Assembly (NCBI RefSeq): GCF_900176005.1
Contig: NZ_LT838272.1
Location: 2,747,587 to 2,811,586, forward strand
Length of the DNA: 64,000 nt
Direction of reading: 5' to 3'
From: Thermanaeromonas toyohensis ToBE
GTDB taxonomy: Bacteria; Bacillota; DSM-521; Neomoorellales; Neomoorellaceae
A program made the position numbers and the translations under genes. Within the stretch, counting starts at the first letter, position 1. Every line of letters begins with the position of its first letter. Shown piece by piece: positions 1 to 31,580 of the stretch. Below the pieces are notes generated by a model. The model was not told where the DNA came from and searched no databases. It saw nothing but the letters and a program-made list of their open reading frames with translations.

Positions 1-372
1 CTCGCCGAAGGCCAGGGTGATCATGGCAAAGTAGGTATCCCGCACCCGCAGCGAGAGAGTACCTATGAGAAGGGAAATAAGCAAGCCAAAAAGAAAAACT
101 GCCACCAGCCCGGTTAGAAGCGCTGGGATGCTTGGACCAATATTTTTGAGCAACAACCCAATTATATAGGCGCCGCTCCCGAAAAAGAGAGCATGACCGA
201 AGCTTATGATACCTGTGTACCCCAACAAGATATCATAACTCATGGCAAAAACAGCTATGATAAAAATTTGTGTCAGTAGATTAAGGGTAGCTCGTGACTC
301 GGTAAGCAAGGGTACAACTGCCATAAAGCCTATTAATATAGCCACCAGAATCCATTTAAACTTCTCTTTCAC
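1..372 (-). CDS. livM: Branched-chain amino acid-type ABC transporter permease LivM (partial, C-terminus outside window)
   Basis: This is the inner-membrane permease partner of LivH in a Liv-type (HAAT family) ABC importer. Only the first 124 codons are present; the gene runs off the left edge. The start is GTG at 372, whose G is shared with the livH stop codon (TAGTG), so the two are translationally coupled. The N-terminus is hydrophobic with several membrane segments, and shows the LivM-type stretches SYDILLGYTGIISFGHALFFG and SLRVRDTYFAMITLAFGE. It is the last visible gene of the livG-livF-livH-livM string. The substrate cannot be read from the permease; neighbouring CoA-transferase and condensing-enzyme genes suggest a carboxylic acid or amino acid. 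Confidence 0.9.
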   Translation of the reverse strand, partial: MKEKFKWILVAILIGFMAVVPLLTESRATLNLLTQIFIIAVFAMSYDILLGYTGIISFGHALFFGSGAYIIGLLLKNIGPSIPALLTGLVAVFLFGLLISLLIGTLSLRVRDTYFAMITLAFGE

Positions 373-1235
373 TAGATCCGGCCTCCCCCAAATAATCCTC
401 TGGGTCTAACTAGTAAGACCACTGCCATAAGGAGGACGTTGACCGTCAAGGCTGCTTCCGGGGCAAACCACGAAACCAGGGCACCCATTAGCCCCACCAG
501 GAGAGCCCCTGCCAGCGATCCAATAAAACTTCCCAGCCCCCCGATTACTACTACAATAAAAGCCAAAAGCTGGTTGTCCATCCCCATGGTAGGACTAATG
601 GCTCCATTCAGAGGGCCCATCATAGCCCCTCCCAAGGCAGCCAGGCCAGCACCCAGAGCAAATATAAGAGTAAAAATTTTTCGTATATCGATACCCAAAG
701 CCTGGACCATCTCACGGTTTTCTACCCCGGCGCGAACAATGATACCCAACCGTGTCCGCTGCAGCAGAAAATACACTAGAAGGGCTATCAAAATGCCCAC
801 CGCAATGGTAAATAACCGGTATTTTACCAGTATAATCCCCCCGAAGTCCCAGCTGCCCTCCAGCCACTTGGGCCCGGGACTGGTAAGAATATTAGGCCCC
901 CAGAGCACCCTAACGAGCTCGGTAAGAACCAGCATTAAGCCCATTGTAAGAAGCATTTGGGATACATGGCTGCCGTACACCCTGCTTATGGTCAGCCTTT
1001 CTAAAACTGTACCCAGAATCACCCCGCATAGTACCGCGCCAAGTAAAGCGAGGCCAAAGCTTTGAGTCTGGCTGAAAATCCAGGCTCCCATGTAAGCGCC
1101 CCACAGAAAGAAAGCTCCATGGGCGAAATTCAGGATATCCATCAACCCAAAGATAATAGATAGACCCACGGCGAATAAGAAAATAGCCATACCGGTAGCA
1201 ATGCCGTTGGTAGTCAGATTAATAAAGGTTTCCAT
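372..1235 (-). CDS. livH: Branched-chain amino acid-type ABC transporter permease LivH
   Basis: Membrane permease of a Liv-type importer, 287 aa, normal length for LivH. It starts at ATG 1235 behind a G-rich stretch. Multiple hydrophobic segments are visible, with the family stretch GLSIIFGLMDILNFAHGAFF near residue 25-45 and the conserved NREMVQALGI loop near residue 170, where permeases of this group contact the ATPase. It sits between livF upstream and livM downstream, overlapping livM by one base. With livM, livF, livG and the binding lipoprotein at 8832-10067 it makes a complete importer. Confidence 0.95.
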   Translation of the reverse strand: METFINLTTNGIATGMAIFLFAVGLSIIFGLMDILNFAHGAFFLWGAYMGAWIFSQTQSFGLALLGAVLCGVILGTVLERLTISRVYGSHVSQMLLTMGLMLVLTELVRVLWGPNILTSPGPKWLEGSWDFGGIILVKYRLFTIAVGILIALLVYFLLQRTRLGIIVRAGVENREMVQALGIDIRKIFTLIFALGAGLAALGGAMMGPLNGAISPTMGMDNQLLAFIVVVIGGLGSFIGSLAGALLVGLMGALVSWFAPEAALTVNVLLMAVVLLVRPRGLFGGGRI

Positions 1236-1299
1236 TTAAACCCCCCCACCAAGGTTTTGACAACGCCTTTCGCCGGTTCAACATCCTTTTCAATGTTAC

Positions 1300-1998
1300 T
1301 TACAAGCTAATTCCCAGGTATTTCTGCTGAAGGTTCACGTTATTAACCAAGTCCTCCATCTCACCCTGGGCCACCGTCCGTCCATCATCGATGATGTAAA
1401 AGCGATCCCCTACATACTGGGCCAGGTTGAAGTTCTGCTCCACCAGAACCACAGTAGTCTGTCGCTTTATCTCTTTTATGGCTTCCGCTACTTTCTCCAC
1501 CACTACCGGCGCCAGTCCCTTACTCGGTTCGTCAATTAGCAACAAGCTATTTTCGCCAACAAGAGCGCGTCCCAATGCCAGCATCTGCCTCTGCCCACCG
1601 CTCAGGCTACCCGCTTTCTTCTGCCACGCCACTTTTAAATCAGGAAAAATAGATAATACTTTATCCAGCAGTTCCCCCGAACGATTCCCTTTCATAGCTA
1701 TTTTGAGGTTTTCTTCTACTGTTAAGCCGCTAAAAATGGCCTGATCCTCTGGAACATATCCTATTCCCTTTCGGGCCACCATGTGGGCGGGCAGGCCGTC
1801 AATACGCTCACCCTTGAATTCGATCCTGCCCTTTCTGGGCTTTAGTAACCCCATAATGGACCGCAAGGTAGTCGTCTTCCCCGCCCCATTCCGGCCCAGG
1901 ACGACCGTGACCTTCCCTTCCGGCACTTCCAGGGATACTCCCTGGAGAATGTGGAATTCTCCTATATAGGTCTCCAAATCCTCGACCCTCAGTATCAC
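1300..1998 (-). CDS. livF: Branched-chain amino acid-type ABC transporter ATP-binding protein LivF
   Basis: Cytoplasmic ATPase of the Liv importer, 232 aa. Walker A GRNGAGKTT (about residues 35-43), signature LSGGQRQ and Walker B LLLIDEPSKG are all intact, and the GLAPVVVEKV stretch after Walker B is typical of LivF. The start is GTG at 1998, overlapping the livG TGA stop as GTGA, a 4-base coupling. A 64-base gap with no obvious terminator separates it from livH, so one transcript is likely. Confidence 0.95.
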   Translation of the reverse strand: MILRVEDLETYIGEFHILQGVSLEVPEGKVTVVLGRNGAGKTTTLRSIMGLLKPRKGRIEFKGERIDGLPAHMVARKGIGYVPEDQAIFSGLTVEENLKIAMKGNRSGELLDKVLSIFPDLKVAWQKKAGSLSGGQRQMLALGRALVGENSLLLIDEPSKGLAPVVVEKVAEAIKEIKRQTTVVLVEQNFNLAQYVGDRFYIIDDGRTVAQGEMEDLVNNVNLQQKYLGISL

Positions 1999-2750
1999 GC
2001 CATTCCCCCTCCTAGATAGGCTTCCTGTACCCTTTCGTCCTTCACAATATCCTCAGGGCTGCCGCTGGCCAAAACGTTGCCGTTAAAAAGTACCACTATC
2101 TCATCAGACAGGGATAGTACCATGTTCATCTTGTGTTCCACCAACAGAACTGTGCGATCCCTTTTCTCCTTTATTTTCTGCAACAGATCGATCATGGCCG
2201 GGACTTCCTCCAGGGAGATCCCCGCAGTAGGTTCATCCAACAGCAATACCTCTGGCTCCATAGCAAGAACAATGGCGATCTCCAATTTACGCTTTTCTCC
2301 ATGGGTTAAAGTAGCGGCAAGGGCCTCTGCTTTCCCGTCCAGGCCTACTAGGTTCAAAACCTCCATTGCCTTGTCCGTCAAGTCCCGGAACCGGGCGGCC
2401 GGAGTGAAAGGGCGGAATCCTACACGCTCTTTGGCCTGCACTGCCAGCCTCACGTTTTCCAAGACCGTAAGCCTGGGAAATACATTGGTTATCTGGAAGC
2501 ACCTGCCCAGGCCCAACCGGGCCCTTTCATGGACGCTAAGACCTGTTATATCTTCTCCTTTGTAAAATATTTTACCGCGTGTGGGTTTTAGCTGACCGCT
2601 GATGAGATTAAATAGAGTAGTCTTGCCTGCCCCATTAGGACCTATAATAGAGGTAAAAGTGTAAGGTCTGATAATTATGTTTACACCGTTTACCGCAAAA
2701 TGCCCTCCGAACGCCCTGGTCAAATCCTCTGTACGTAGAATACCGTCCAT
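1995..2750 (-). CDS. livG: Branched-chain amino acid-type ABC transporter ATP-binding protein LivG
   Basis: Second cytoplasmic ATPase of the Liv importer, 251 aa, ATG start. Walker A is GPNGAGKTT and Walker B is EVLLLDEPTAG. The signature motif is the LivG variant LTHGEKRKLEIA instead of LSGGQ. The stop overlaps the livF start. The gene follows the CoA-transferase at 2769-4070 by only 18 bases, so the transporter appears to be transcribed with that enzyme and the KAS III-like gene. This ties uptake to acyl-CoA formation. Confidence 0.95.
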   Translation of the reverse strand: MDGILRTEDLTRAFGGHFAVNGVNIIIRPYTFTSIIGPNGAGKTTLFNLISGQLKPTRGKIFYKGEDITGLSVHERARLGLGRCFQITNVFPRLTVLENVRLAVQAKERVGFRPFTPAARFRDLTDKAMEVLNLVGLDGKAEALAATLTHGEKRKLEIAIVLAMEPEVLLLDEPTAGISLEEVPAMIDLLQKIKEKRDRTVLLVEHKMNMVLSLSDEIVVLFNGNVLASGSPEDIVKDERVQEAYLGGGMA

Positions 2751-2768
2751 AGTTCCAAGTTCACCTCC

Positions 2769-4070
2769 TTACCATAGTTTAAGACGCTTAGCTGCATCCC
2801 GTAATTCTGCCCGGAAATCCGGGTGGGCAATATTTATAAGCTGTTTAACTCTCTCTCTAATGCTTCTTGCTTTAAGGTGAGCGACGCCGTATTCGGTTAC
2901 CACATAGTCCACATCCGCCCGTAGTAGGGTCACTTTGGCACCTTCTGGCAGGCAAGGGACGATAGTAGATATAGTCCCACCCTTGGCGGTGGATCTCAAA
3001 GCTATAATAGACTTGCCGCCGGGAGACATCTGGGCTCCTATAGCGGTATCTGTCTGACCTCCTGTGCCGCTGTACTGGAAATGGCCCAAGCTCTCAGAGA
3101 CCACCTGCCCTGTAAGGTCAACTTGCAGGGCCGTGTTGACGCTCACCATCTTATAATTTCTGGCGATAATACAGGGATCGTTGGTGACCCTTCCAGGCTG
3201 GAATTCTACAGCTAGGTTTTCGTTGATAAAGTCATATAACTTACGCGTGCCCAGGGCAAAATTCCCTACCATTTTGCCGGGCCAGAGGGTTTTACACCGT
3301 CCGGTGATAACACCAGCCTCGACAAGGTCTACCATGCCATCGGTAAACATCTCGGTATGAACCCCTAAATCTTTCTTGTTCATTAGGAACTTGGCGATAG
3401 CATTGGGTATGCCCCCAATGCCCAGTTGAATAGTAGACCCGTCTTCAATTAGATCCGCTATATAGCTCCCTATGGCCCGCTCTTCTTCGCTCGGTTCGAT
3501 AGGCTGTATCTCCACCAGAGGGGCTTCGTATTCTACTACGTAATCCACCTGGCTGATGTGTACCTGGGTGTCGCCGTAGGTACGGGGCAGGTTGGGGTTT
3601 ATCTCTAATATTACTGTTTTAGCTACAGCCATAAGGTCTTTTTCGTATCCTACTCCCAAAGACAGGGAGAAGTAGCCGTGCCGGTCCATAGGGCAGGCGG
3701 TCCCCCAGAAGAAATCCGGCGGGTCAAAACGAGCCTTACGCGGCCCCCAGTCTCGGCCGTGGGAAGGGATCAAAGAAACGGTGCCTAGCTCATGTCCTTT
3801 GCGCTCGTTAGCCCCATAAAACCAACTTTCCAGGATGAAATGTCCCTTCATGCTGGGGTCCAGGAAGAAATCAAATTCTCTGAGGAGCAAGGCACTGAAA
3901 ACCCGGACGTTTTCTACTTCATCACGGCGTTTCCCCAGGGCCCCTAAAAGGCCTGGCGGAGCTGAAGCAGCCATAGCTGCGGCAATGCTGCAATTGGAAG
4001 TTACCATACCGACAGCTTCATCTATGCTTATGAGTTTGCGGCGGTATTGTTCTTTATAATTCACACCCAT
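2769..4070 (-). CDS. Acetyl-CoA hydrolase/CoA-transferase family protein, module A (4-hydroxybutyrate/acyl CoA-transferase-like)
   Basis: A 433-aa member of the family that includes 4-hydroxybutyrate CoA-transferase and acetyl-CoA hydrolase; these move CoA between an acyl-CoA and a free carboxylate through a glutamyl-CoA intermediate. The stretch GVHTEMFTDGMVDL (about residue 238) carries the probable catalytic Glu, and GIGGIPNAIA and VTEYGVAHLK are further family landmarks. It has a close full-length paralogue at 26488-27786. It lies between the KAS III-like gene and livG on the same strand with short gaps, so it probably activates a carboxylate imported by the Liv system. The exact acid is unknown. 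Confidence 0.9.
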   Translation of the reverse strand: MGVNYKEQYRRKLISIDEAVGMVTSNCSIAAAMAASAPPGLLGALGKRRDEVENVRVFSALLLREFDFFLDPSMKGHFILESWFYGANERKGHELGTVSLIPSHGRDWGPRKARFDPPDFFWGTACPMDRHGYFSLSLGVGYEKDLMAVAKTVILEINPNLPRTYGDTQVHISQVDYVVEYEAPLVEIQPIEPSEEERAIGSYIADLIEDGSTIQLGIGGIPNAIAKFLMNKKDLGVHTEMFTDGMVDLVEAGVITGRCKTLWPGKMVGNFALGTRKLYDFINENLAVEFQPGRVTNDPCIIARNYKMVSVNTALQVDLTGQVVSESLGHFQYSGTGGQTDTAIGAQMSPGGKSIIALRSTAKGGTISTIVPCLPEGAKVTLLRADVDYVVTEYGVAHLKARSIRERVKQLINIAHPDFRAELRDAAKRLKLW

Positions 4071-4107: not shown

Positions 4108-5127
4108 TTATTCCTCAGGACCCCACTTGACCACGGTAGCTGCCCAGGCGTACCCGACGCCTGCGCTCACCATGACCACTATGTCCCCATCTTTAACCAG
4201 CCCCCTTTCCAGGGCCAGTTCCAGGGATAATATTTGATCCATTTGTCCTATATGTCCATAATCTTCCAGATATATAGACTGTTCAGGTCTTAAATTTAGC
4301 TGGGAAAGTATATACTCATGTGCAGAGCGCTTCATGTGTAAAAGGCAGAGATATCCGATATCCGCTGTGCTATAACCGCTTTCCTCCAGGGCTTCCCTTA
4401 TAACCCTTAAGAAATTGGGCATAGAAACTTCTTCTAAACGATTCTTCATACCTTCAGGATCGAATACATCTAGACTATAAAGCCCCTGCGCTACTGTTTC
4501 CGGTGTCAAAGGGACTTTAGTGCCTCCCGCCGTGACTCCCACGGCATCGGCCAGGGAGGGATCGGTTATAATACGGCTTCCTAGCACCGTGTTTCGCCTT
4601 AGACCTTTCTGTAGCACAACTGCAGCGCCACCCGCTCCCAGATTGTACATAAAGCGCACGCGGGGATTCTTGTAATTTATCAAATCTCCGTTGCGGTAGC
4701 CGCCGGCCAGCAATACGGTGTTTATATTCTCATTGGCCAGCATAAGGTCCTTGGCTATCTTGAGAGCCATGACCATGGTGCCACACCTGAGCTGCACATC
4801 GAATCCCCAAGCGCGCGTTGCTCCAACGCCTCCCTGGAGTTTAATGGCACCCGTCTGGAGTAAATGCTCCTTATATTCTTCGCCAATGTAGATAACCAGA
4901 TCAATTTCTTCTGGCTTTATCTCCCCTTTTTCCAAGGCCAGACGAGCGGCTTTGATACCCATTTCTATGGTATGATCGTCTGGACCAGGGATAGGTTTCC
5001 GTTTAAAGCCCAGTTTTTCTTCTACTATCTCCTGGGGTATCCCGCTCTCCCTGGCTATATCGGCACTGGTCATAAAGGTGGAGGGTATATATACCCCCGT
5101 ACTGCGGATGCCTACTGTCTTTTTCAT
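4108..5127 (-). CDS. 3-oxoacyl-ACP synthase III (KAS III/thiolase-fold)-like condensing enzyme, module A
   Basis: A 339-aa thiolase-fold protein of the KAS III group. The nucleophile is likely Cys115 (LRCGTMV), and His264 (LLHMKR) matches the FabH histidine. At the place of the FabH asparagine the protein has His292 (DYGHIGQ), giving Cys-His-His rather than Cys-His-Asn by my hand alignment. The paralogue at 25371-26390 has the same substitution. Both are linked to a CoA-transferase and a SARP-type regulator, so the job is probably acyl-CoA condensation or thiolytic cleavage in catabolism, not fatty acid initiation. That role is inference. There is no acyl carrier protein gene nearby. Confidence 0.85.
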   Translation of the reverse strand: MKKTVGIRSTGVYIPSTFMTSADIARESGIPQEIVEEKLGFKRKPIPGPDDHTIEMGIKAARLALEKGEIKPEEIDLVIYIGEEYKEHLLQTGAIKLQGGVGATRAWGFDVQLRCGTMVMALKIAKDLMLANENINTVLLAGGYRNGDLINYKNPRVRFMYNLGAGGAAVVLQKGLRRNTVLGSRIITDPSLADAVGVTAGGTKVPLTPETVAQGLYSLDVFDPEGMKNRLEEVSMPNFLRVIREALEESGYSTADIGYLCLLHMKRSAHEYILSQLNLRPEQSIYLEDYGHIGQMDQILSLELALERGLVKDGDIVVMVSAGVGYAWAATVVKWGPEE

Positions 5128-5158: not shown

Positions 5159-5362
5159 TTATATTTTCCTCGTATCCAAGGGGATAACTTTGTTGTGGGC
5201 CAAGGCTTTTTCCTTTTCCACGATTTGTTGGAAAAGGGAAGGTATTTTGTCAATACCTGTTAAATGATATACGGTCCCGCTTTGCACATGATGTATAATG
5301 ATCCTCCACGGTATTTGCTCGTTGCCCGCTTCATACATAATCCGGACTACAAAGGAAGCCAT
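5159..5362 (-). CDS. Hypothetical 67-aa protein, first gene of module A
   Basis: A small ORF not recognised as a family member. I chose ATG at 5362, seven bases behind an AGGA box; the frame stays open to a TTG at 5398, but that lies in the T-run of a terminator. The protein is soluble, with alternating hydrophobic and charged stretches (ASFVVRIMYEAGNEQIPWRI, then HLTGIDKIPSLFQQIVEKEK). It is the first ORF after the nested promoter at 5426-5457 and is 31 bases upstream of the KAS III-like gene, so it may be an accessory or regulatory peptide of module A. Confidence 0.5.
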   Translation of the reverse strand: MASFVVRIMYEAGNEQIPWRIIIHHVQSGTVYHLTGIDKIPSLFQQIVEKEKALAHNKVIPLDTRKI

Positions 5363-5396
5363 TACTTTTTCCTGCAACCGCTTTGCCCCTTTCCCC

Positions 5397-5436
5397 AAAA
5401 AGAAAACCTGCTATCCTTTGTTACCATGATAGCAGG
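5397..5436 (-). terminator. Intrinsic terminator of SARP-type regulator 1
   Basis: A perfect 9-bp inverted repeat, CCTGCTATC at 5407-5415 and GATAGCAGG at 5428-5436, has a 12-base loop. Read on the minus strand, the hairpin is followed by a T-rich tract (positions 5397-5406). It lies just downstream of the regulator stop at 5460. A promoter-like site overlaps its upstream arm (see 5426-5457). Confidence 0.85.
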
Positions 5437-5457
5437 CTCAAGTTGCTTACTAGTTAC
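5426..5457 (-). promoter_or_regulatory. Putative SARP-type promoter of module A, nested in the regulator-1 terminator
   Basis: On the minus strand the heptamers GTAACTA and GCAACTT are separated by 4 bp (5440-5457). They are followed after exactly 8 bp by TATCAT (5426-5431), a 5/6 match to the -10 consensus. This is the layout known for SARP activators, which bind 11-bp-period repeats in place of a -35 box. The predicted start near 5419 falls inside the terminator loop, so RNA begun here would lack the first hairpin arm and escape termination. It would drive the 67-aa gene, KAS III, CoA-transferase and liv genes. Confidence 0.6.
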
Positions 5458-5459
5458 AT

Positions 5460-8400
5460 TTAAACGGCTATAAAATTCTGGGTCAATTTTTTATACAGCT
5501 TAACTGTTTTGAGGGAGGGCGATACACCTAATTCTTTTCTTAAAACCTCCTGGCATCTTTCATACACCTTCACCACCATAGACCCATGGCCCAGTTTACT
5601 ATAACAGTACATTTTAAGGCGATAGGCCTCTTCCCAGCATTTATCCTTCTCTAAAATCCTGTCAGCCCATTCAATGCACTCTTTGTATTCTCCCCTGCGC
5701 GCCAGTAACCTCGCCAAAAGCTCTGCTCCTCGTATATAAACCACTGCCAGTCGCTCCCGTTCCTCCAGGCACCACTCTTCCAGGTTTATCCCCTGTAAGT
5801 AATCACCCTGATACAGTTCTAAGGCCCGCCTCAGCAATACCTCCGCTTCTTCCGGTCGCTCCTCCGCTATCTCTTCCGCCCTAGTAACGGAAGTTTCAAA
5901 TTCTTCTGCGTCAAGCCAGAAACCGGAAGCTAAGTTAAAATAATAAGCGGAACCCTGCCTCTGGATAAAAAATGACGGACTTCTGGGCTGCCTGCTGGGC
6001 TCCAGTACATTGAGCAAGCTATTAAGAGCCACTTTGAAGTCGCGGGAGGCCGCCTCCGGATCGGCATCCGGCCACAGGTAACACATAATCTCCTCTTTAT
6101 GCAATAGGACACGCCTCTTGGTTAGTAGTAATTGAAAGAGTCTCCTGGCGCTTTCTCGGCGCCATTCCTGAGGGCTAATTTCTTCCGTTCCGCGCCACAC
6201 GCGAAACTGCCCCAGAGTTTGGATGCGCAAGGTATAGCCTATGACCGGAAGGCTATCCCTGGCGCCCAGTTTATCCAGCTGCCAATTTACATAGGAAAGG
6301 CGTATTCCTTGCTCCTTGGCCGCACAAAGTAGCGGCACAGAAGCCCTGCCGTCTCGGGCTCCCAAAAGGCTGCCCCGGTGCAGCAAAAAATCGTATCCCC
6401 GGGTTTCGCATAACTCTAAGAGCTCGGACACATTTTCGCGAAACTCCTCTTCCCGCCCTTCCTTTAAGGCAATATAGGAGAGCCACCACGCGGAAACAGT
6501 TTTGCCAAAGCTATCCCCGCAAAGGGTAAAAAGTTTTTTGGCTGTTTTTAAGTATTCCTTGGCCTTTTTCAATTCCCCGCAGCATGCACCGGCCATACCC
6601 AGGCAATGATAGAGCATGGCGGCAAACCATCTGTCCCGCACCTGCTCTGCTACCCGTATCCCTTCCAACCCGCATCGCTGGGCTGATAACCAGTCCCCTT
6701 CCAGGCTGTAGGTAAGGCACTGGCCCATCAACACTTCTGTACGGCCACGGATAACACCAAGTTTATCGTTTAGTTCTAAAGCGCGCCTGTAAGCCTCCCA
6801 GCAACTGGCAGGGGAACGCCCTTGAACCAGAAATGCATGTCCCAATCGCACATAACCAATGGCTTCTGTGAAGGGAGAATTTAACCTCCGTCCCGCTTCT
6901 ATACCTTCCTTAGCGGCAACCTCAGCCTTTTCTCCTTCCCCTATCAGGGAATAACATAAGGAAAGTACCAAAGGGGTTTCCCGGAAGGAAAAGGGGGGGT
7001 GGTACTTCCCCTTTTCTAAATGAGCATTATTTTCTAGTAATTGGATTGCCGCCTGCAATCTTCCTGTACGCAGAAGCAACCTGGCCTCAAAATTTCCTCT
7101 ACTAGCCAGATGCAGCATCTCGTTAGCCAGCTTTTTATAACGGCTAGCATGGCGCGGCTTGCCCTGGTTGACCATATTCTCCGCCATAAGATTCAGAATC
7201 TCGGCCTTCTCTTCATTGTGTTCTTCACCCAACATTTTGTAGGCCCGGCGCAAATATTCTTCTGCTAGAGACGGTTGAATGGTATCAATATAGACTTCCG
7301 CCACTCCTTTCCAAGCCCTGCTCTGCCCAACCCTGTCACCTGCCGCAGAGTACTTTTCCGCCGCCCGATAGTAAAGCTCCAAAGCCGCCTGATAGTTAGA
7401 GGCCAATCTCTCAGCATCACCTAAAGCCACTAAAAAGTCCGCCCTTTCTTGGTATTCAAGAGGTAACTGTTTAATATAATGTCGCAGGTGTTTACCCCGG
7501 CCACTAAAAATTAACTCGCGGCTTAAACGAGACAATAACTCAGCGGCATCAGCCCATTGCCTGCCTGCAAACAGGTAATGAAGAGCTTCTTCATATTGTC
7601 CTTCATTAAGGTAAAAATAGCCTGCGCGGCAATGTAAAACCTCCCAATCTGGCAATCTTTTGCGAGCTTCGCGCCTTAAAAAGTCTCTAAAAAGGTTGTG
7701 ATATCGGAAGTGTCCCTCGCCTAAATCGGTGAGGAATAACCCTTTTTCCAGAGCCTCATAAAGAAGCGCCGGTGTAAAATCGTCCCCCATTAAAGCCCTA
7801 CAGGCCGGGATACTTAGATCGTTTAGTATGGAGGACCGGAGCAGGAACATTTCTAAAGCAGGGGACTGCTGCCTCAAGACATCAAGGGCTAGAAACTCAA
7901 ATAAATCCTCCAGATTATCGTATAATATAGCTCGCCGGGCCAGGGCTTGCGGGACTTCATTCAGGATCCTGCCGATTAGTCTTACAGCCATAAACCACCC
8001 TTCGCTGTAGTCATAAATAGCCTGTACTTCTTCCCGGCTAAAACGACCACGATAAGTTCTGGCTAAATATTCACTCACCTCATTTACTTCTAAAGCCAGG
8101 TCTTTCTCTTCAATTACCAACCTCTCTCCTTTAGTTCCCAAGCGACATACCTCTGGTAGATTGACCCGTTCTCTGGAAAGCAAAGCTACCTTAAGCCAGC
8201 CGGGCTTACCGGCCAAGAAGCGGTCGAAAAACATGGCGATGTCTTTCTCTTTCCCTACTAGATGCCAGTCGTCCACGACCAGAATAGCCGGTTCCCTTTC
8301 CTGCTTATTAAGCGAAGCTAAAAAAGCCTCCAATACCCTCTCCCAGCTTATGCCGTCCAGCTTAGCAAGCTGCGTGCCAATGTTTTCTCCCGTGCCCGTC

Positions 8401-8675
8401 AAAAGACTATCCAGGGCCCGGGCCAGGTAACTAGCAAAAGTAAAAAGGCTAGCATCTTCCGGACCCGGGCTGTACCATGCGCAAGGCAATTGTTTTTTAG
8501 TAACAACCTGGGCCACAGCAGTCGTCTTACCGTACCCAGCACCCGCACAAACAATAGTCACCGCATAATCCATTAATTTATCGAGCTTGGCTTTTAGTGC
8601 GGGCCTGAGCCAGGTGTCTGCCTCTGGTTTGGGGAGAGCCAACTTGCTCTCTATCAAGGCCAGCGGCCTGAACAA
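5460..8675 (-). CDS. Large MalT-like ATPase-TPR regulator with C-terminal SARP (winged-helix plus BTAD) module, regulator 1
   Basis: A cytoplasmic one-component regulator of about 1071 aa. The order is a STAND-type NTPase (Walker A AGAGYGKTT about residues 44-52, Walker B LVVDDW about 132-137), a long TPR-like helical middle, an OmpR-like winged helix from about 816 (LGQFRVWRG), then a bacterial transcriptional activation domain to the end (ELYQGDYLQG). MalT carries a LuxR helix-turn-helix at this end; here a SARP module replaces it. I chose TTG 8675, eight bases behind AAGGGGG; the frame extends to TTG 8702 without a ribosome site. The paralogue is at 28166-31339. A repeat of its presumed type lies in its own promoter, suggesting autoregulation. 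Confidence 0.9.
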   Translation of the reverse strand: MFRPLALIESKLALPKPEADTWLRPALKAKLDKLMDYAVTIVCAGAGYGKTTAVAQVVTKKQLPCAWYSPGPEDASLFTFASYLARALDSLLTGTGENIGTQLAKLDGISWERVLEAFLASLNKQEREPAILVVDDWHLVGKEKDIAMFFDRFLAGKPGWLKVALLSRERVNLPEVCRLGTKGERLVIEEKDLALEVNEVSEYLARTYRGRFSREEVQAIYDYSEGWFMAVRLIGRILNEVPQALARRAILYDNLEDLFEFLALDVLRQQSPALEMFLLRSSILNDLSIPACRALMGDDFTPALLYEALEKGLFLTDLGEGHFRYHNLFRDFLRREARKRLPDWEVLHCRAGYFYLNEGQYEEALHYLFAGRQWADAAELLSRLSRELIFSGRGKHLRHYIKQLPLEYQERADFLVALGDAERLASNYQAALELYYRAAEKYSAAGDRVGQSRAWKGVAEVYIDTIQPSLAEEYLRRAYKMLGEEHNEEKAEILNLMAENMVNQGKPRHASRYKKLANEMLHLASRGNFEARLLLRTGRLQAAIQLLENNAHLEKGKYHPPFSFRETPLVLSLCYSLIGEGEKAEVAAKEGIEAGRRLNSPFTEAIGYVRLGHAFLVQGRSPASCWEAYRRALELNDKLGVIRGRTEVLMGQCLTYSLEGDWLSAQRCGLEGIRVAEQVRDRWFAAMLYHCLGMAGACCGELKKAKEYLKTAKKLFTLCGDSFGKTVSAWWLSYIALKEGREEEFRENVSELLELCETRGYDFLLHRGSLLGARDGRASVPLLCAAKEQGIRLSYVNWQLDKLGARDSLPVIGYTLRIQTLGQFRVWRGTEEISPQEWRRESARRLFQLLLTKRRVLLHKEEIMCYLWPDADPEAASRDFKVALNSLLNVLEPSRQPRSPSFFIQRQGSAYYFNLASGFWLDAEEFETSVTRAEEIAEERPEEAEVLLRRALELYQGDYLQGINLEEWCLEERERLAVVYIRGAELLARLLARRGEYKECIEWADRILEKDKCWEEAYRLKMYCYSKLGHGSMVVKVYERCQEVLRKELGVSPSLKTVKLYKKLTQNFIAV

Positions 8676-8736
8676 AGTTTCGACCCCCTTGCTAGGGTCC
8701 AATACAACCCATTTTTTAAGAGGAACTTTAATTTTA

Positions 8737-8769
8737 ATTTTAACATAAAAAAGATTGCATATCAGTTAC
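8737..8769 (-). promoter_or_regulatory. Putative SARP-type promoter of regulator 1 (autoregulatory)
   Basis: On the minus strand GTAACTG-atat-GCAATCT (8752-8769) forms heptamers with a 4-bp spacer. They are followed after 9 bp by TAAAAT (8737-8742), a 5/6 -10 match. The site lies directly after the T-run of the livK terminator and upstream of the regulator-1 start. It shares the GTAACTR-N4-GCAAYYT form with the livK and module A sites. Confidence 0.55.
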
Positions 8770-8770
8770 A

Positions 8771-10187: not shown

Positions 10188-10219
10188 ATTTTAAAATTTT
10201 GAAGTTGCAAAGCAGTTAC
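10188..10219 (-). promoter_or_regulatory. Putative SARP-type promoter of livK
   Basis: On the minus strand GTAACTG-cttt-GCAACTT (10202-10219) is followed after exactly 8 bp by TAAAAT (10188-10193), a 5/6 -10 match. The second heptamer is identical to that of the module A site. The transcript would have a leader of roughly 115 bases before livK. Confidence 0.6.
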
Positions 10220-14817: not shown

Positions 14818-14849
14818 AATCTAGCCTTCTGGGGTTACAGGTGGGTTAC
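14818..14849 (-). promoter_or_regulatory. Putative SARP-type promoter of the thiolase operon
   Basis: On the minus strand two identical heptamers GTAACCC are separated by ACCT (14832-14849). They are followed after exactly 8 bp by TAGATT (14818-14823), a 4/6 -10 match. The gene-proximal distance to the thiolase ATG is about 110 bases. The perfect repeat with 11-bp period fits SARP binding; the GTAACCY form matches the module B site rather than the regulator-1 sites. Confidence 0.5.
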
Positions 14850-18403: not shown

Positions 18404-18425
18404 CTAATTTCCGTATTCCCGGAAT
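18319..18425. promoter_or_regulatory. Candidate enhancer (UAS) palindromes for the sigma-54 activator
   Basis: Three palindromes built on TTCCGGAA occur here: ATTCCGGAAT at 18319-18328, TTTTCCGGAAAT around 18387-18398 and ATTCCCGGAAT at 18415-18425. A further half-overlapping copy, AATCCCGGAAT, is at 18327-18337. They lie 150-260 bases upstream of the gntP -24 box, the usual range for enhancers bound by Fis-type C-terminal domains. Assignment to the adjacent activator is inference. Confidence 0.65.
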
Positions 18426-20140
18426 GCACTCTCTCGCAAACCGTAGCGAGCTACTTTTTCATAAAAAGTAGATTTGCTTAATCCTAAAAGATGTGCTGCC
18501 AATAGACAGTTTCCTTTAGTGTATCTCAATGCCTCCTCCAGTAGCTCTTTTTCCACTCTAGCTAACGTTTCTTTTAAAGGGCGCAAAGGCCTTGAGTTAA
18601 AAGTTCTTGTTTCTGTAAGGTAAGGTGGCAAATGGTGGGGCAAGATCTCCGGTCCATCTACTACGTTGAGCGCTCGCTCCAATACGTTTTCTAGTTCTCT
18701 AACGTTTCCCGGCCAATTGTGCTGGAGTAAGACTTCTAAGGCTGCAGGGGTAATTTTCTTCCTTCCACAACCTAAAGTTCTTCCTAATTTATCCAAAAAA
18801 TGCTCCACAAGTAAAGGAATATCTTCTTTACGCTGTCTTAAAGGAGGTATTTCGAAAGTCACTACATTCAGTCGGTAAAAAAGATCACTTCTAAACCTTC
18901 CCTCCCTTATCAAGGCTTCCAGATCTCGATTAGTGGCTGCAATAACACGAACATCGATCTTGACCGGCCGATTGCCGCCCACATGCTCTATTTCTTTTTC
19001 TTGAAGAACTCTTAGGAGTTTAGCCTGCATGTTTAAGGGCATATCCCCTATCTCATCTAAAAATATAGTACCGCCATTGGCCAGTTCGAACTTACCAGGT
19101 TTACCTCCCTTTTTAGCCCCTGTAAAAGCGCCTTCTTCGTAACCGAAAAGTTCAGATTCTAACAGGTTTTCCGGGATGGCTGCACAGTTAACCTTTATAA
19201 AAGGGCCACGATAGCGGGGCGAGGCATTATGGATAGCATGGGCAAATAACTCCTTCCCCGTACCACTTTCTCCTTTTAATAACACTGTTGAAGAAGTTGA
19301 GGCCACTTTATTTACCATCTCTTTTAACTCTCTTATTACTCGACTTTGGCCTATAATATCTTCAAGTGAATATCTAGCTTGCTGGTAATGCCGCCGGAGT
19401 TGTCCTTTATAGTATTCAAGTTCTTTCTTTAACCTCCGGACCTGTTCTGCCAGTTCATCAACTTCAGAGATATCACGGAATAATACTTTACCCACAGCGC
19501 CTATAATTTTATCCCCTTCCCATATAGGGATACGATCGCAAATCATATTATGTCCTTTGATGCGTTGTACTTGACGGAATTCCGGCTTCCCTGTCTTGAT
19601 AACAATATGCATTCTAGTGTTTTCAATGACTTCTTGAACATGTTTACCGATCATCTCTTCAGGTCTAACACCTAAAAAGTCTGCATAGGCTTGGTTAAAC
19701 ATAGTGATATAACCGTTCTCATCAACTACCACTATCCCTTCATAGGCGGTATCTAAAATAGTATACAAAATATTCCTCCACCTTTCAGTAAGTTCAAGCT
19801 TCTTGGTCATTCTTCTTAACTCGGTTATTTCTCGTAACAATAACAAAAGTCCCTCGTTCATGCCCCCTTTCTTTAGCGTCACAGCACGACACAAAAAGTC
19901 CCGGTCACCGATACTTATCTCTCCTTCTTTTTGACCGCCTCGCTCAAGAAGGCCAACGAGTTCTACCCAGAAAGGAACTTTACCAAAAAGTTCGCTTAAT
20001 GAGGAGCCAATAACTGAAGCGCCTAAAAAGTTTCTTGCAGCTGGATTGGTATTAATAACTTGCAGTGAACTATCCGTCAGTAATACGGGATCCTCCAAGG
20101 TTTCCCATAGAAGCTTGAGAAAAGATTGGGGTATAGGCAT
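18404..20140 (-). CDS. Sigma-54-dependent transcriptional activator with two PAS-type domains
   Basis: A 578-aa cytoplasmic activator. Two PAS-like sensory domains (about 8-110 and 118-225) and a short coiled coil (about 228-255) precede the AAA+ domain, which has Walker A GESGTGKE (290-297), the sigma-54 contact loop GAFTGA (337-342) and Walker [14 protein letters not shown] Fis-type helix-turn-helix is near 545-570 ([13 protein letters not shown]). No receiver domain is present, so the signal is probably a ligand or redox state sensed by PAS. It sits between two operons that each have a sigma-54 promoter, gntP-pct and the maoC-bcd-etf operon, its likely targets. Start ATG 20140. Confidence 0.93.
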
Positions 20141-20350
20141 CGGTCTCTCAGCTCCTTAAAAAAGCTATATAAATACGTTTCTGTTATTAAAGTACTATTT
20201 GCTTTTTATTAACGTCAATCCTTCAAGTACTCTACAATCCTTTGTATCTTCTACATAAGACCCCAGCTTAAGTCATTGTTCGATTAACCGTTTATCCTAC
20301 ATAGTTACCCTAGTCAAATTTCCTCTATCGAGTAAGTCTCTTATACTTCT

Positions 20351-20381
20351 GTAACCCAAAGGTAACTTGTAAGGTTATATT
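20351..20381 (+). promoter_or_regulatory. Putative SARP-type operator/promoter upstream of maoC-bcd-etf
   Basis: GTAACCC-aaag-GTAACTT (20351-20368) has the 4-bp spacer and 11-bp period. It is followed after 7 bp by TATATT (20376-20381), a 5/6 -10 match. It lies about 25 bases upstream of the sigma-54 promoter, so the operon may have two promoters with different activators. Confidence 0.5.
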
Positions 20382-20474: not shown

Positions 20475-20891
20475 ATGGCCTACAGATTCGATGAAATCCA
20501 AATCGGTCAAAAAGCTAGCCTTAGCAAAACTATTACCGAGGCCGACATTTACGCTTTTGCTGGTATCACCGGCGATTTTAACCCCGTCCACGTTGACGCA
20601 GAATTCGCCAAAAAAACTATCTTCAAGGAGAGGATCGCCCACGGCCTTCTAACTGCTGGACTTATTTCCGCCGTGTTGGGCACCAAGCTCCCCGGCCCCA
20701 ACAGTGTTTATCTTAAACAAGAGCTTGAGTTTACTGCTCCGGTGCGGATAGGTGATACTATAACGGCAGAAGTCGAAGTAATGGAAAAGAAGCCAGAGAA
20801 AAAAATTTTGCGCCTAAGAACCATAGCCTTTAACCAAAAAGGGGACACGGTTCTAAAGGGAGAAGCAGTTATTAAAAAACTAGATTCGTGA
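20475..20891 (+). CDS. MaoC family (R)-specific enoyl-CoA hydratase
   Basis: A 138-aa hotdog-fold hydratase of the MaoC/PhaJ type, hydrating enoyl-CoA to (R)-3-hydroxyacyl-CoA. The hydratase-2 motif is clear in YAFAGITGDFNPVHVD with catalytic Asp and His, followed by IAHGLLTAGLIS. It is first in the operon, behind AAGGGGG, upstream of the acyl-CoA dehydrogenase and the ETF genes. No crotonase is present in the window, so this and its paralogue at 24260-24670 are the only hydratases for the pathway here. Confidence 0.92.
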   Translation: MAYRFDEIQIGQKASLSKTITEADIYAFAGITGDFNPVHVDAEFAKKTIFKERIAHGLLTAGLISAVLGTKLPGPNSVYLKQELEFTAPVRIGDTITAEVEVMEKKPEKKILRLRTIAFNQKGDTVLKGEAVIKKLDS

Positions 20892-28006: not shown

Positions 28007-28033
28007 AGCCCCACCTCCTATAGATTTTTTACA

Positions 28034-28080
28034 ATTATAAATTAACCCTGGCTGGTGACAAAAAGGTTACTCCCAGGTAA
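28034..28080 (-). promoter_or_regulatory. Module B promoter with triple SARP-type heptamer repeat
   Basis: On the minus strand three heptamers at 11-bp period read GTTACCT, GTAACCT and GTCACCA (28053-28081 region), with spacers GGGA and TTTT. The third overlaps TTGTCA (28056-28061), which stands 16 bp from a perfect TATAAT (28034-28039). The site lies between the terminator of regulator 2 and module B. A good -35/-10 pair plus three repeats suggests activation or repression by the SARP-type regulator encoded next door. Confidence 0.6.
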
Positions 28081-28131
28081 CAAAAAAACAAAAAAGCACC
28101 CCGCGACCTCCAGAAGGCCGGGATGCTATAA
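28081..28131 (-). terminator. Intrinsic terminator of SARP-type regulator 2
   Basis: On the minus strand AGCATCCCGGCC pairs with GGTCGCGGGGTGCT (about 28096-28127) with one G-T pair and a small bulge. It is followed by a long T-rich tract (complement of 28082-28095). It lies 35 bases past the regulator stop. Confidence 0.85.
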
Positions 28132-28165: not shown

Positions 28166-31100
28166 TTATATTTGACTGATGGTATCTTTAAGTAAGTTCA
28201 AAATCTCCCCGGAAGGACGGATACCAAGGTATTTTCGTACAGCTTCCTTGTACTGCTGGTAAACCTGGACAGCCCGGGTTTTCTGCCGCAGCTTCCCATA
28301 GCACTGGATCATTAGACGATAGGCGTTCTCCCAGCAGGGGTCAACTTTAAGGTTTTGCCCGCATACGTATAGGCACCGGTAATAATCTTCCTGTTCCAGG
28401 TATATTCTTGCCAATCCATCATTGGCCGATAAATATAAGTCTCGCATTCGTTCCCTTTCTAAAGCAGCCCAATCTTCATATAAAGCATCCTCCAAGTAAT
28501 CTCCAGCATATAACGCTATGGCTTCTTCCAGGAACTCCTGAGCCAGAACTTTTTTCCCTTTGCTCAAATATTCCAAGCCCGTTTTCACTTTTTGGATGAA
28601 AATATCTACATCCACTTCTACATCTTCCCCAGTACGGAGGCCATAACGATTGCCTTCCCGGATTATGAAATAAGAAGTTCCCCCTGGTCGCCGGGGTTCC
28701 AAGACATTATTCAAGGCCACCAAAGTAACTTTAAAATTGCTGTCAGCTCTCTCTTCTTCTTTTTCCGGCCACAACATTTCCATTAGCTTTTCTTTAGCCA
28801 GCAAAGAACCGCGGTAAGTTACCAATATCTCTAATAGCCGTTTGGCTTTATCTCTGCGCCATTCTTTGCTGGACACCTTTTGAGGACCGCGATAGACTTG
28901 GAGTTCTCCCAACGCTTTAATACCCAATTTATAGCCAGGATGGTACCCTTGATGAGAGTGTGCTAACTGTTCCCCAAGAAAGCCTTTAACAAAACAGGAA
29001 GTAAGAAATAACTTCAGCTCTCCTATCTCCCTTGGTCTCCAAAGGCACGCGCGCTCGAGCAAAAATCTATAACCATGCTGATTGAGCTTATATTCCAATT
29101 CTTGCCCTATAAGTGAAAAGCATTCATAGGAACTAGTACGCCAATAAGTTAAAGCTTCCCATAAAAGAGCTACCACTGGCCCAAAGGTATCCCCGCAATC
29201 TGCTAGAGTTTTTCTGGTTTTAAGAAATAAATCTAAGGCTTGGTTATAAGAACCACTATTATAATAAGCTATACCCAAGGCTAGTTCAGTTAAGGCAGCA
29301 AGCCAGCGGTCATTTACTTCATGGCAAATTTGATAACCCATCTCAGCGTAATAACGCGCTCTGCTCAAATCTCCTTTAAAAGCATAAGCTAAAGTTAACC
29401 CCCACAGAGGCTCCCCCTTCCCTCGCGGCGTGCTAACCCGATCCGACAGTTCTATCGCTCTGTGATACCATTGTACCGCCTTTTCCAACTCATTCATAAC
29501 ATTATAAACCTGACCGATACGCGCAGCAGCCACGGATTCGGTAAAGGGGGACCCTACTCTCTGACTAGCCTCTAGCACTTCCCAGGCCAACTCTAAAGCC
29601 CGCTCTAAATTCTGACCTGTTAAACTATATAACAAAGAAAGTACCAGTTTTATTTCCCTGTGAGATTTGGGAGACAGATCGCTTTCATCCCTAGTTAATT
29701 CCTGTTCTATATAATTTATATCCTCTTCCAGCTGCCCGGTCCGTAAAAGTAGTCGGGCTTTCAAATGCTTAGAAATATTATACCCTGAAGCTACAGCACG
29801 GGCGATGTAGCTCTGGGCCTCCACCAGCTTACCTTGGTTTAAAGAATTTTCTCCCAGCAACTCTAGGATAGACCCTGTATTGGAAAAACCGGCTTGTTCA
29901 CGAATCTTGTAGGCTTCATATAATAAGGGATCGGCCTTGACGGGTTGAACAGTATCGAGAAATACCAGGGCTTTTTTTTCCAGTGCTGCTGCTACACCTA
30001 GATTATCTCCTATCTTCTCCCAGAGAAATCGAGCTTTTTCATAGGACGATAGGGCCTCTTCGAAGTAACTGGTAAGCCTTTTGACATCGCCCAATAATAA
30101 GTATAAGTGAGGATGTGTGTTATATATTTCTTCTGGTATCTCTTCCAGCCATTTTATAATTTTCCTGTATTGGGCCGTCTTTATCAAAGACCCTGCTATT
30201 TCTAAAATTATAGTTATAGCACGGTCATACATCTTTGCCATGAGAAAATGATAAATTGCCTCTTCTGGCAACCCTTCCTGTAAAAAATATTCCCCTACTT
30301 GAGCATTTAATAGCTTTAAGTTCACCCCTTCTTTTTCAGCTATATGGAGCAAAAAACGCCTGAAAAGCTTATTAAACCTATAAGTACCTCGACCGTAATC
30401 ATGAATAAAGAGCCCTTTATCAATTATTTGGTACAAATTCTTTATACCGTCGGAACCAAAAAGAGCCGCACAAATTCTCTCATTGAGATCACGCAATACA
30501 GCAGATTTAAGAATAAAAGTACGCAGTTCTGGCGGCTGGTTCTGTAAAACTGAAATAGCTAAGAATTGGAACAAATCCTGTATGTTTTCCTGCTCCTCTG
30601 GAATAAAAATTTCCCTCCGGCCCGCCCCCTGGCTACTTGCTAGCATGGCTACTGCTATAGGCCACCCATCGGTAAGTTCTAAAATAGCTTGAACTTCTTG
30701 TTCTGTTAATTGTTTTCCGTACTTTATTTTAAAAAGCTGTTCTATCTCCTGAGCATCAAAAGCTAAATCATTTTGCTCAATATACAAAATGCGGCCTTTC
30801 AACTTCCATTCTGGCAGGAAGGAAAAGTTAAAAGGGGTTCGGGAGGTAATAATTAGATGAAGGTTTGGGGGTGAATAACGAATTAAATGCTCTATAACTG
30901 TATTAACTTCATCCTGGTTAATTTGATGGTAATCTTCAATGATAAAATATAAATCCTTGTTTGGTATGCTTATTAACTCATTGATCCATAAGTTTAAAAT
31001 ATACTTCCAGGATTGTCTGAAATCTTCACTTTCCTTTAAAACCTCTATAGACCTAATTGGAGTTTCCTTGATGTTAGCACTAGCTGTCAGAAAACTTGAC

Positions 31101-31339
31101 AGAAATACAGGTAATTCATTGTCTTCCTTGTCCAGATTTAACCAAAAACAACTATATCCCTGAAGATGAAAATAATAACTCAAAGCCGCACTCTTACCGT
31201 AACCTGGACCAGCTAAAATCAAGATTAAAGGATATTTATTTATCTCTTTTATCTTTTTGTAGAACCGTGAAGTAAGGATTATCTCTTTGCCAGTAGAAGG
31301 CATCATAAATTTAGTTATCGGAAAAGTATCTGCTTTCAC
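28166..31339 (-). CDS. Large MalT-like ATPase-TPR regulator with C-terminal SARP module, regulator 2
   Basis: About 1057 aa, paralogue of regulator 1. The NTPase Walker A is AGPGYGKSA (about 43-51) and Walker B is YFIIEDYHQI. A long TPR-like middle follows, then a winged helix starting ALGELQVYRGPQKVSSKEWR and an activation domain with YAGDYLEDALYEDWAALERERM. I chose GTG 31339, directly behind AAGGAGGGGGGAGAG; an upstream extension to TTG 31417 has no ribosome site. It is more AT-rich than its neighbours. It precedes module B on the same strand but has its own terminator, and is the likely reader of the GTAACCY-type repeats. Confidence 0.9.
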   Translation of the reverse strand: MKADTFPITKFMMPSTGKEIILTSRFYKKIKEINKYPLILILAGPGYGKSAALSYYFHLQGYSCFWLNLDKEDNELPVFLSSFLTASANIKETPIRSIEVLKESEDFRQSWKYILNLWINELISIPNKDLYFIIEDYHQINQDEVNTVIEHLIRYSPPNLHLIITSRTPFNFSFLPEWKLKGRILYIEQNDLAFDAQEIEQLFKIKYGKQLTEQEVQAILELTDGWPIAVAMLASSQGAGRREIFIPEEQENIQDLFQFLAISVLQNQPPELRTFILKSAVLRDLNERICAALFGSDGIKNLYQIIDKGLFIHDYGRGTYRFNKLFRRFLLHIAEKEGVNLKLLNAQVGEYFLQEGLPEEAIYHFLMAKMYDRAITIILEIAGSLIKTAQYRKIIKWLEEIPEEIYNTHPHLYLLLGDVKRLTSYFEEALSSYEKARFLWEKIGDNLGVAAALEKKALVFLDTVQPVKADPLLYEAYKIREQAGFSNTGSILELLGENSLNQGKLVEAQSYIARAVASGYNISKHLKARLLLRTGQLEEDINYIEQELTRDESDLSPKSHREIKLVLSLLYSLTGQNLERALELAWEVLEASQRVGSPFTESVAAARIGQVYNVMNELEKAVQWYHRAIELSDRVSTPRGKGEPLWGLTLAYAFKGDLSRARYYAEMGYQICHEVNDRWLAALTELALGIAYYNSGSYNQALDLFLKTRKTLADCGDTFGPVVALLWEALTYWRTSSYECFSLIGQELEYKLNQHGYRFLLERACLWRPREIGELKLFLTSCFVKGFLGEQLAHSHQGYHPGYKLGIKALGELQVYRGPQKVSSKEWRRDKAKRLLEILVTYRGSLLAKEKLMEMLWPEKEEERADSNFKVTLVALNNVLEPRRPGGTSYFIIREGNRYGLRTGEDVEVDVDIFIQKVKTGLEYLSKGKKVLAQEFLEEAIALYAGDYLEDALYEDWAALERERMRDLYLSANDGLARIYLEQEDYYRCLYVCGQNLKVDPCWENAYRLMIQCYGKLRQKTRAVQVYQQYKEAVRKYLGIRPSGEILNLLKDTISQI

Positions 31340-31580
31340 CTCTCCCCCCTCCTTATATGATAGTAATTGTAAAGGTCCGGTCTCTGATATTTGAAAAGGT
31401 AATAACGAAAGAAACAATAGCCATAGTCATCCATGTTTCAAAGAATTACTCTCCAATATCCCTGCCTCTTATTCTTAAACTACATTTAACTGGGCTTGCC
31501 CGAACCATCTCCGCTTTTACTTCGCTTACTCTCCACTTTCTGAACACATGAATCATAAAGTAAAGTTTAATCTACCCATT

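Follow-up and report, generated by a model that had tools for sequence, protein, structure and literature searches.

In E. coli, the promoter of ampC overlaps the end of the preceding frd operon, and a terminator located downstream of the ampC start attenuates ampC. In Salmonella, inter-operon terminator-promoter overlaps have been described at tufB-secE and in other translation operons (Brandis, Cao and Hughes 2019, in PMC7055797), and it has been reported that interruption of the tufB-secE overlap lowers fitness (PMC7055797, citing Brandis 2019). An overlapping promoter-terminator has also been described in phiX174 (PMC9135205). SARP activators, according to the account given in PMC10936776, act at promoters in which direct repeats lie 11 or 22 bp apart and the 3' repeat is positioned 8 bp from the -10 element; at the AfsR-dependent afsS promoter of Streptomyces, as presented in the same source, a pair of 11-bp direct repeats covers the -35 region and lies 8 bp from the -10. 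The locus described here lies in a 64,000-nucleotide stretch of the Thermanaeromonas toyohensis ToBE genome (the window), and it probably represents a terminator-promoter overlap that ends an activator's gene and is under the control of that activator. This nested overlap at the 3' end of a regulator gene appears to be a compact piece of gene control. The regulator concerned, regulator 1, is encoded as follows:

5460 to 8702, minus strand: gene of regulator 1, 1080 amino acids, with a MalT-like NTPase, TPR repeats and a C-terminal AfsR-like SARP domain (wHTH and BTAD)
5462 to 5460, minus strand: TAA stop codon of regulator 1, from the sequence

Pfam matches BTAD at residues 930-1073 of regulator 1. 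Compared with known structures, the profile of the regulator 1 family matches MalT (8bob) at positions 12-423 and the SARP domain of AfsR in polymerase complexes (8hvr, 8jke and 8k60) at positions 825-1078; TPR proteins are also matched by the profile of regulator 1 and its relatives. The protein therefore has the SARP domain, NTPase and TPR repeats that together mark a large SARP, or SARP-LAL, regulator. Searches of viral contigs found no relative, a scan of named genomes found one, in Firmicutes bacterium UBA3576 (L032), and class-level searches around G129, G097, G132 and G187 (genomes are given by these labels, G000 being the present one) yielded almost no further genomes. Just before regulator 1, at 8737-8770 on the minus strand, a weaker repeat pair, GTAACtgatatGCAATct, directly borders the U tract with which the terminator of the upstream gene ends; regulator 1 might regulate its own gene here, with an operator next to the terminator instead of inside it.

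On the minus strand, the TAA stop codon is followed in order by AT, GTAACTA, GTAA, GCAACTT, GAGCCTGC, TATCAT, GGTAACAAAG, GATAGCAGG and TTTTCTTTTT, so that two bases (AT) separate the stop from the first repeat. These elements, all on the minus strand, are:

5451 to 5457, minus strand: first activator repeat, GTAACTA, from the sequence and motif searches
5440 to 5446, minus strand: second activator repeat, GCAACTT, from the sequence, the 11-bp period and its position 8 bp from the -10
5439 to 5432, minus strand: 8-bp spacer, GAGCCTGC, between GCAACTT and TATCAT
5428 to 5436, minus strand: 5' arm of the terminator, CCTGCTATC, from the fold and from pair counts across relatives; overlaps the spacer and the -10
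5426 to 5431, minus strand: -10 element, TATCAT, from the sequence; conserved in an alignment of relatives
5419, minus strand: predicted transcription start of module A, placed at A5419, seven bases past the -10
5407 to 5415, minus strand: 3' arm of the terminator, GATAGCAGG, from the fold and from pair counts across relatives
5397 to 5406, minus strand: U tract, TTTTCTTTTT, from the sequence; predicted 3' end of the regulator mRNA

The direct repeats follow the 11-bp step of SARP promoters (up to four repeats are found in relatives), and the 3' repeat lies 8 bp from the -10, as it does in the relatives. Moreover, TGC precedes TATCAT, forming an extended -10. A generic scan for sigma-70 promoters and terminators (loop limit 8) missed the 5397-5457 site because its hairpin loop exceeds 8 and its promoter lacks a -35 consensus; Rfam has no family in the window. 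From the domain match of the adjacent gene and from co-occurrence, we infer that the site is bound and activated by regulator 1; the paralogous regulator reg2 could bind at 5440-5457 as well.

The hairpin that follows has a G+C-rich stem with a 9-bp perfect core and leads into TTTTCTTTTT just past the gene, as in an intrinsic terminator, and the fold energy of this piece of sequence is -18.2 kcal/mol compared with -10.9 +/- 2.7 in shuffled sequences (z -2.7). The -10 at 5431-5426 lies inside the stem-loop at 5436-5407, TATC forming part of the 5' arm and AT falling in the loop; thus, elements of the promoter are nested in the upstream terminator on the same strand. An RNA that starts at 5419 holds the second arm only, and in the predicted fold of such a truncated RNA the terminator cannot form. 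Truncated RNAs in the other nested cases also lose the hairpin, with a different structure predicted downstream in G132. Termination at the U tract in vivo and initiation at 5419 are predicted from these features.

The preliminary description had placed a SARP-type site 2 bp past the regulator 1 stop, which is correct, with exact 11-bp and 8-bp spacing, and had located the -10 TATCAT in the upstream arm and loop, in agreement with sequence and fold. Its claim that RNA begun near 5419 cannot form the terminator is borne out by the folds of truncated RNA. However, the further claim that termination and initiation proceed "without interference" is unsupported: the argument covers the RNA level only, and both polymerases need the same DNA, since a terminating polymerase reaches the U tract only after passing over the repeats, the -10 and the start. 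With a span of about -40 to +20, a promoter complex would lie over 5459 to 5400 and cover the whole terminator; mutual exclusion on the DNA is therefore expected.

According to the proposed mechanism, transcripts of regulator 1 would cross the site, fold CCTGCTATC against GATAGCAGG and end in the U tract at 5406-5397, and termination there would keep transcription of the regulator gene from reaching module A. The SARP domain of regulator 1 would bind the GTAAC/GCAAC repeats and place RNA polymerase on TATCAT, with transcription starting near 5419, in the hairpin loop. The new RNA, having no 5' arm, would therefore not be terminated at that hairpin and would continue into a 72-aa ORF, a KAS III-like gene, and CoA transferase and transporter genes. 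Initiating and terminating polymerases would compete for the same DNA; such competition is to be expected, and it may be used for control or merely tolerated. Module A comprises:

5159 to 5377, minus strand: 72-aa ORF, the first of module A, with a TTG start and, upstream, GGGGAAAGGGG, a strong ribosome-binding site
4108 to 5127, minus strand: KAS III-like 3-oxoacyl-ACP synthase, matching NCBIfam NF005308 above the cut-off
372 to 4070, minus strand: rest of module A, with Pfam matches to acetyl-CoA hydrolase/transferase, two ABC ATPases and a branched-chain type permease

The 72-aa ORF matches no Pfam family; its conserved counterparts in G014, G016, L032 and G129 share 40-51% identity, and G132 has a weak relative close to its KAS III gene.

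The site is closely tied to the regulator. In the 3.33-Mb genome, the pattern GTWAC-N6-GYAAC-N10-TANNNT has three matches, compared with none for the reversed control, and all three fall on the minus strand, in a 10-kb region around regulator 1 (window positions 5457, 10219 and 14849). The two additional copies are:

10188 to 10219, minus strand: second exact copy of the pattern, before a substrate-binding protein gene; not nested
14818 to 14849, minus strand: third exact copy, before a thiolase operon; not nested

Taken together, the KAS III-like gene, CoA transferases, dehydrogenases, thiolase operon and substrate-binding protein resemble a regulon that serves the use of acyl-CoA or keto acids. 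Across 16 genomes with relatives of the regulator, the pattern was matched 23 times, against 2 matches of the controls. In a set of 61 genomes, the three genomes in which a close full-length orthologue is encoded (G000, G014 and G016) gave 11 matches and no control match; the remaining 58, which have no close full-length relative, gave 9 matches versus 10 for the controls, the chance level. GTAAC at 11-bp steps may be put forward as a predicted binding motif of a family of MalT-SARP regulators outside actinomycetes. A further sequence in the window, at 20306-20351 (GTTACctttggGTTAC on the minus and GTAACccaaagGTAAC on the plus strand), lies between a sigma-54 activator gene (18404-20140) and a plus-strand operon at 20475; a search at the usual distance of 8 bp found no -10.

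By itself, a TANNNT within 20 bases of arm and loop would not be rare (about 1 in 4, as calculated); it is the exact SARP spacing and the conservation, rather than a bare -10 match, that carry the case. When the site was held fixed and the downstream bases were shuffled, a terminator of the observed score over the -10 was reached in 0 of 400 shuffles at this locus. Zero of 400 was the outcome at four loci altogether, with 7/400 at G132 and 16/400 at G129. A merely coincidental -10 was rejected on the basis of these shuffles, the locus-specific pattern, the layout in relatives and the chance-level counts in genomes without a relative.

Nesting at the regulator 3' end is found in six other genomes, which represent five distinct sequences (G014 and G016 are nearly the same): G014 and G016, with 66% regulator identity, L032 (67%), G129 (52%), G132 (48% over the C-terminus) and G097 (37%). 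In these relatives the repeats and the 8-bp gap are kept, and a hexamer resembling a -10 (TATCAT, TATGAT, TACCAT, TATGCT or TACGCT) overlaps a hairpin; in G014, G016, L032, G129 and also G165 the first GTAAC takes in the TAA stop codon. The downstream genes vary: the first clade has the small ORF and the KAS III-like gene, and in G097 and G132 a short-chain dehydrogenase comes first. In a tree built on the C-terminal region from few sequences, the nested cases fall into two supported clades with poorly resolved branches between them, compatible with either one or two origins of the layout. About 20 other motif sites in these genomes are not nested, one of them (L078) having a weak hairpin.

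Over G000, G014, L032 and G129, 95% of the cells of the hairpin stem are paired, compared with 30-50% when the arms are slid, and the right arm tracks the left across relatives while the loop varies in length and sequence. Two stem pairs change on both sides among these four sequences, a weak covariation that is at most suggestive at this number. Stem and T-rich tract are present in G000, G014, G016, L032 and G129; the terminator is strong in G000 and G014, and the U tracts are imperfect in G097 and G132.

Other layouts also occur. In G165, G239 and G287 the site comes soon after the stop and there is no terminator; in G209 and G389 a terminator is present and the exact site is absent; and in G069, G196 and G220 repeats lie 160-330 bp further downstream. 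In G331 and at the reg2 paralogue, the terminator precedes GTAAG- or GTNAC-like repeats. In L057 (G165), four GTAAC/GTTAC repeats run at 11-bp steps from the regulator stop codon to 8 bp before TATTGT, the terminator being absent. In the window, reg2 (28166-31417) is followed at 28030-28085 (minus strand) by a terminator, then GTTAC/GTAAC/GTCAC at 11-bp steps and TATAAT 13 bp on; this arrangement is the abutting version of the nested plan. Since G165, G239 and G287 lack a terminator at the site, the promoter does not need one. From these variants, the position of the promoter therefore seems to be the more basic constraint, with the terminator laid over it in some lineages. Relatives with promoter-only, terminator-only, abutting and nested layouts also provide a series in which the effect of the overlap on regulation could be measured.

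The strongest alternative concerns why the overlap exists rather than whether it is present: promoter and terminator must both sit just past the stop codon, and compaction alone may have merged them by chance. Both types of element commonly lie within 60 bp of a stop, and abutting and separate layouts do exist (G331, reg2 and G069); therefore, nesting may carry no function of its own. On the other hand, nesting recurs in two clades of the regulator tree, at regulator ends only, and the downstream shuffles seldom or never reproduce it. This explanation is a serious one, judged to fall somewhat short of probable. The overlap might also be a feedback device in which each polymerase that completes the regulator mRNA displaces the activator from the operator, and an activator-polymerase complex at the promoter blocks completion of that mRNA at the stop codon. 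If so, activator synthesis and module A firing would exclude each other in time; this idea is considered unlikely.

It is also conceivable that module A is expressed mainly by read-through of the regulator mRNA, the hairpin acting as a partial attenuator and the promoter-like site being weak or silent. The shared strand and close spacing would allow this, and co-transcription is likely in G165, G239 and G287 because no terminator separates the regulator from the next gene there. However, the operator and its 8-bp spacing are kept where the surroundings and downstream genes differ, and the strength of the terminator in G000 and G014 also speaks against read-through, which is regarded as distinctly improbable. 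That the repeats bind the regulator while the hairpin serves to stabilise or process the 3' end, or arises as a by-product of the -10 region, would suit the imperfect U tracts of G097 and G132, but is very improbable given the stem and T-rich tract in the other five nested genomes and a stem kept while its loop varies.

The proposed activator-controlled overlap can be set against the known systems. Phrase searches of open-licence papers turned up no promoter that depends on an activator and lies within the terminator of that activator's gene. In contrast to frd-ampC, transcription here would start inside the hairpin, and the new RNA would escape the terminator. The phiX174 element, compared here by its description, similarly ends one transcript and starts the next within one intergenic region; unlike the present site, it belongs to a phage and involves no activator. 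AfsR, as characterised in PMC10936776, shares its NTPase, TPR and SARP domains with regulator 1, in which the C-terminal position of the SARP domain reverses the AfsR order; the repeats here have the sequence GTAAC, and that account of afsS notes no terminator overlap. As at tufB-secE, whose operons are described in PMC7055797 as staying adjacent over the long term, an upstream terminator and a downstream promoter share DNA. In contrast to tufB-secE as described there, the promoter here is of the SARP-activated type, the upstream gene encodes the presumed activator, and in several relatives the operator includes its stop codon. About 60 bases of one circuit would combine operator, -10, terminator and start site, joined in several relatives by the stop codon, in a natural case that recurs. 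Overlaps as such are already known; what would be new is an activator-dependent overlap at the end of the activator's own gene.
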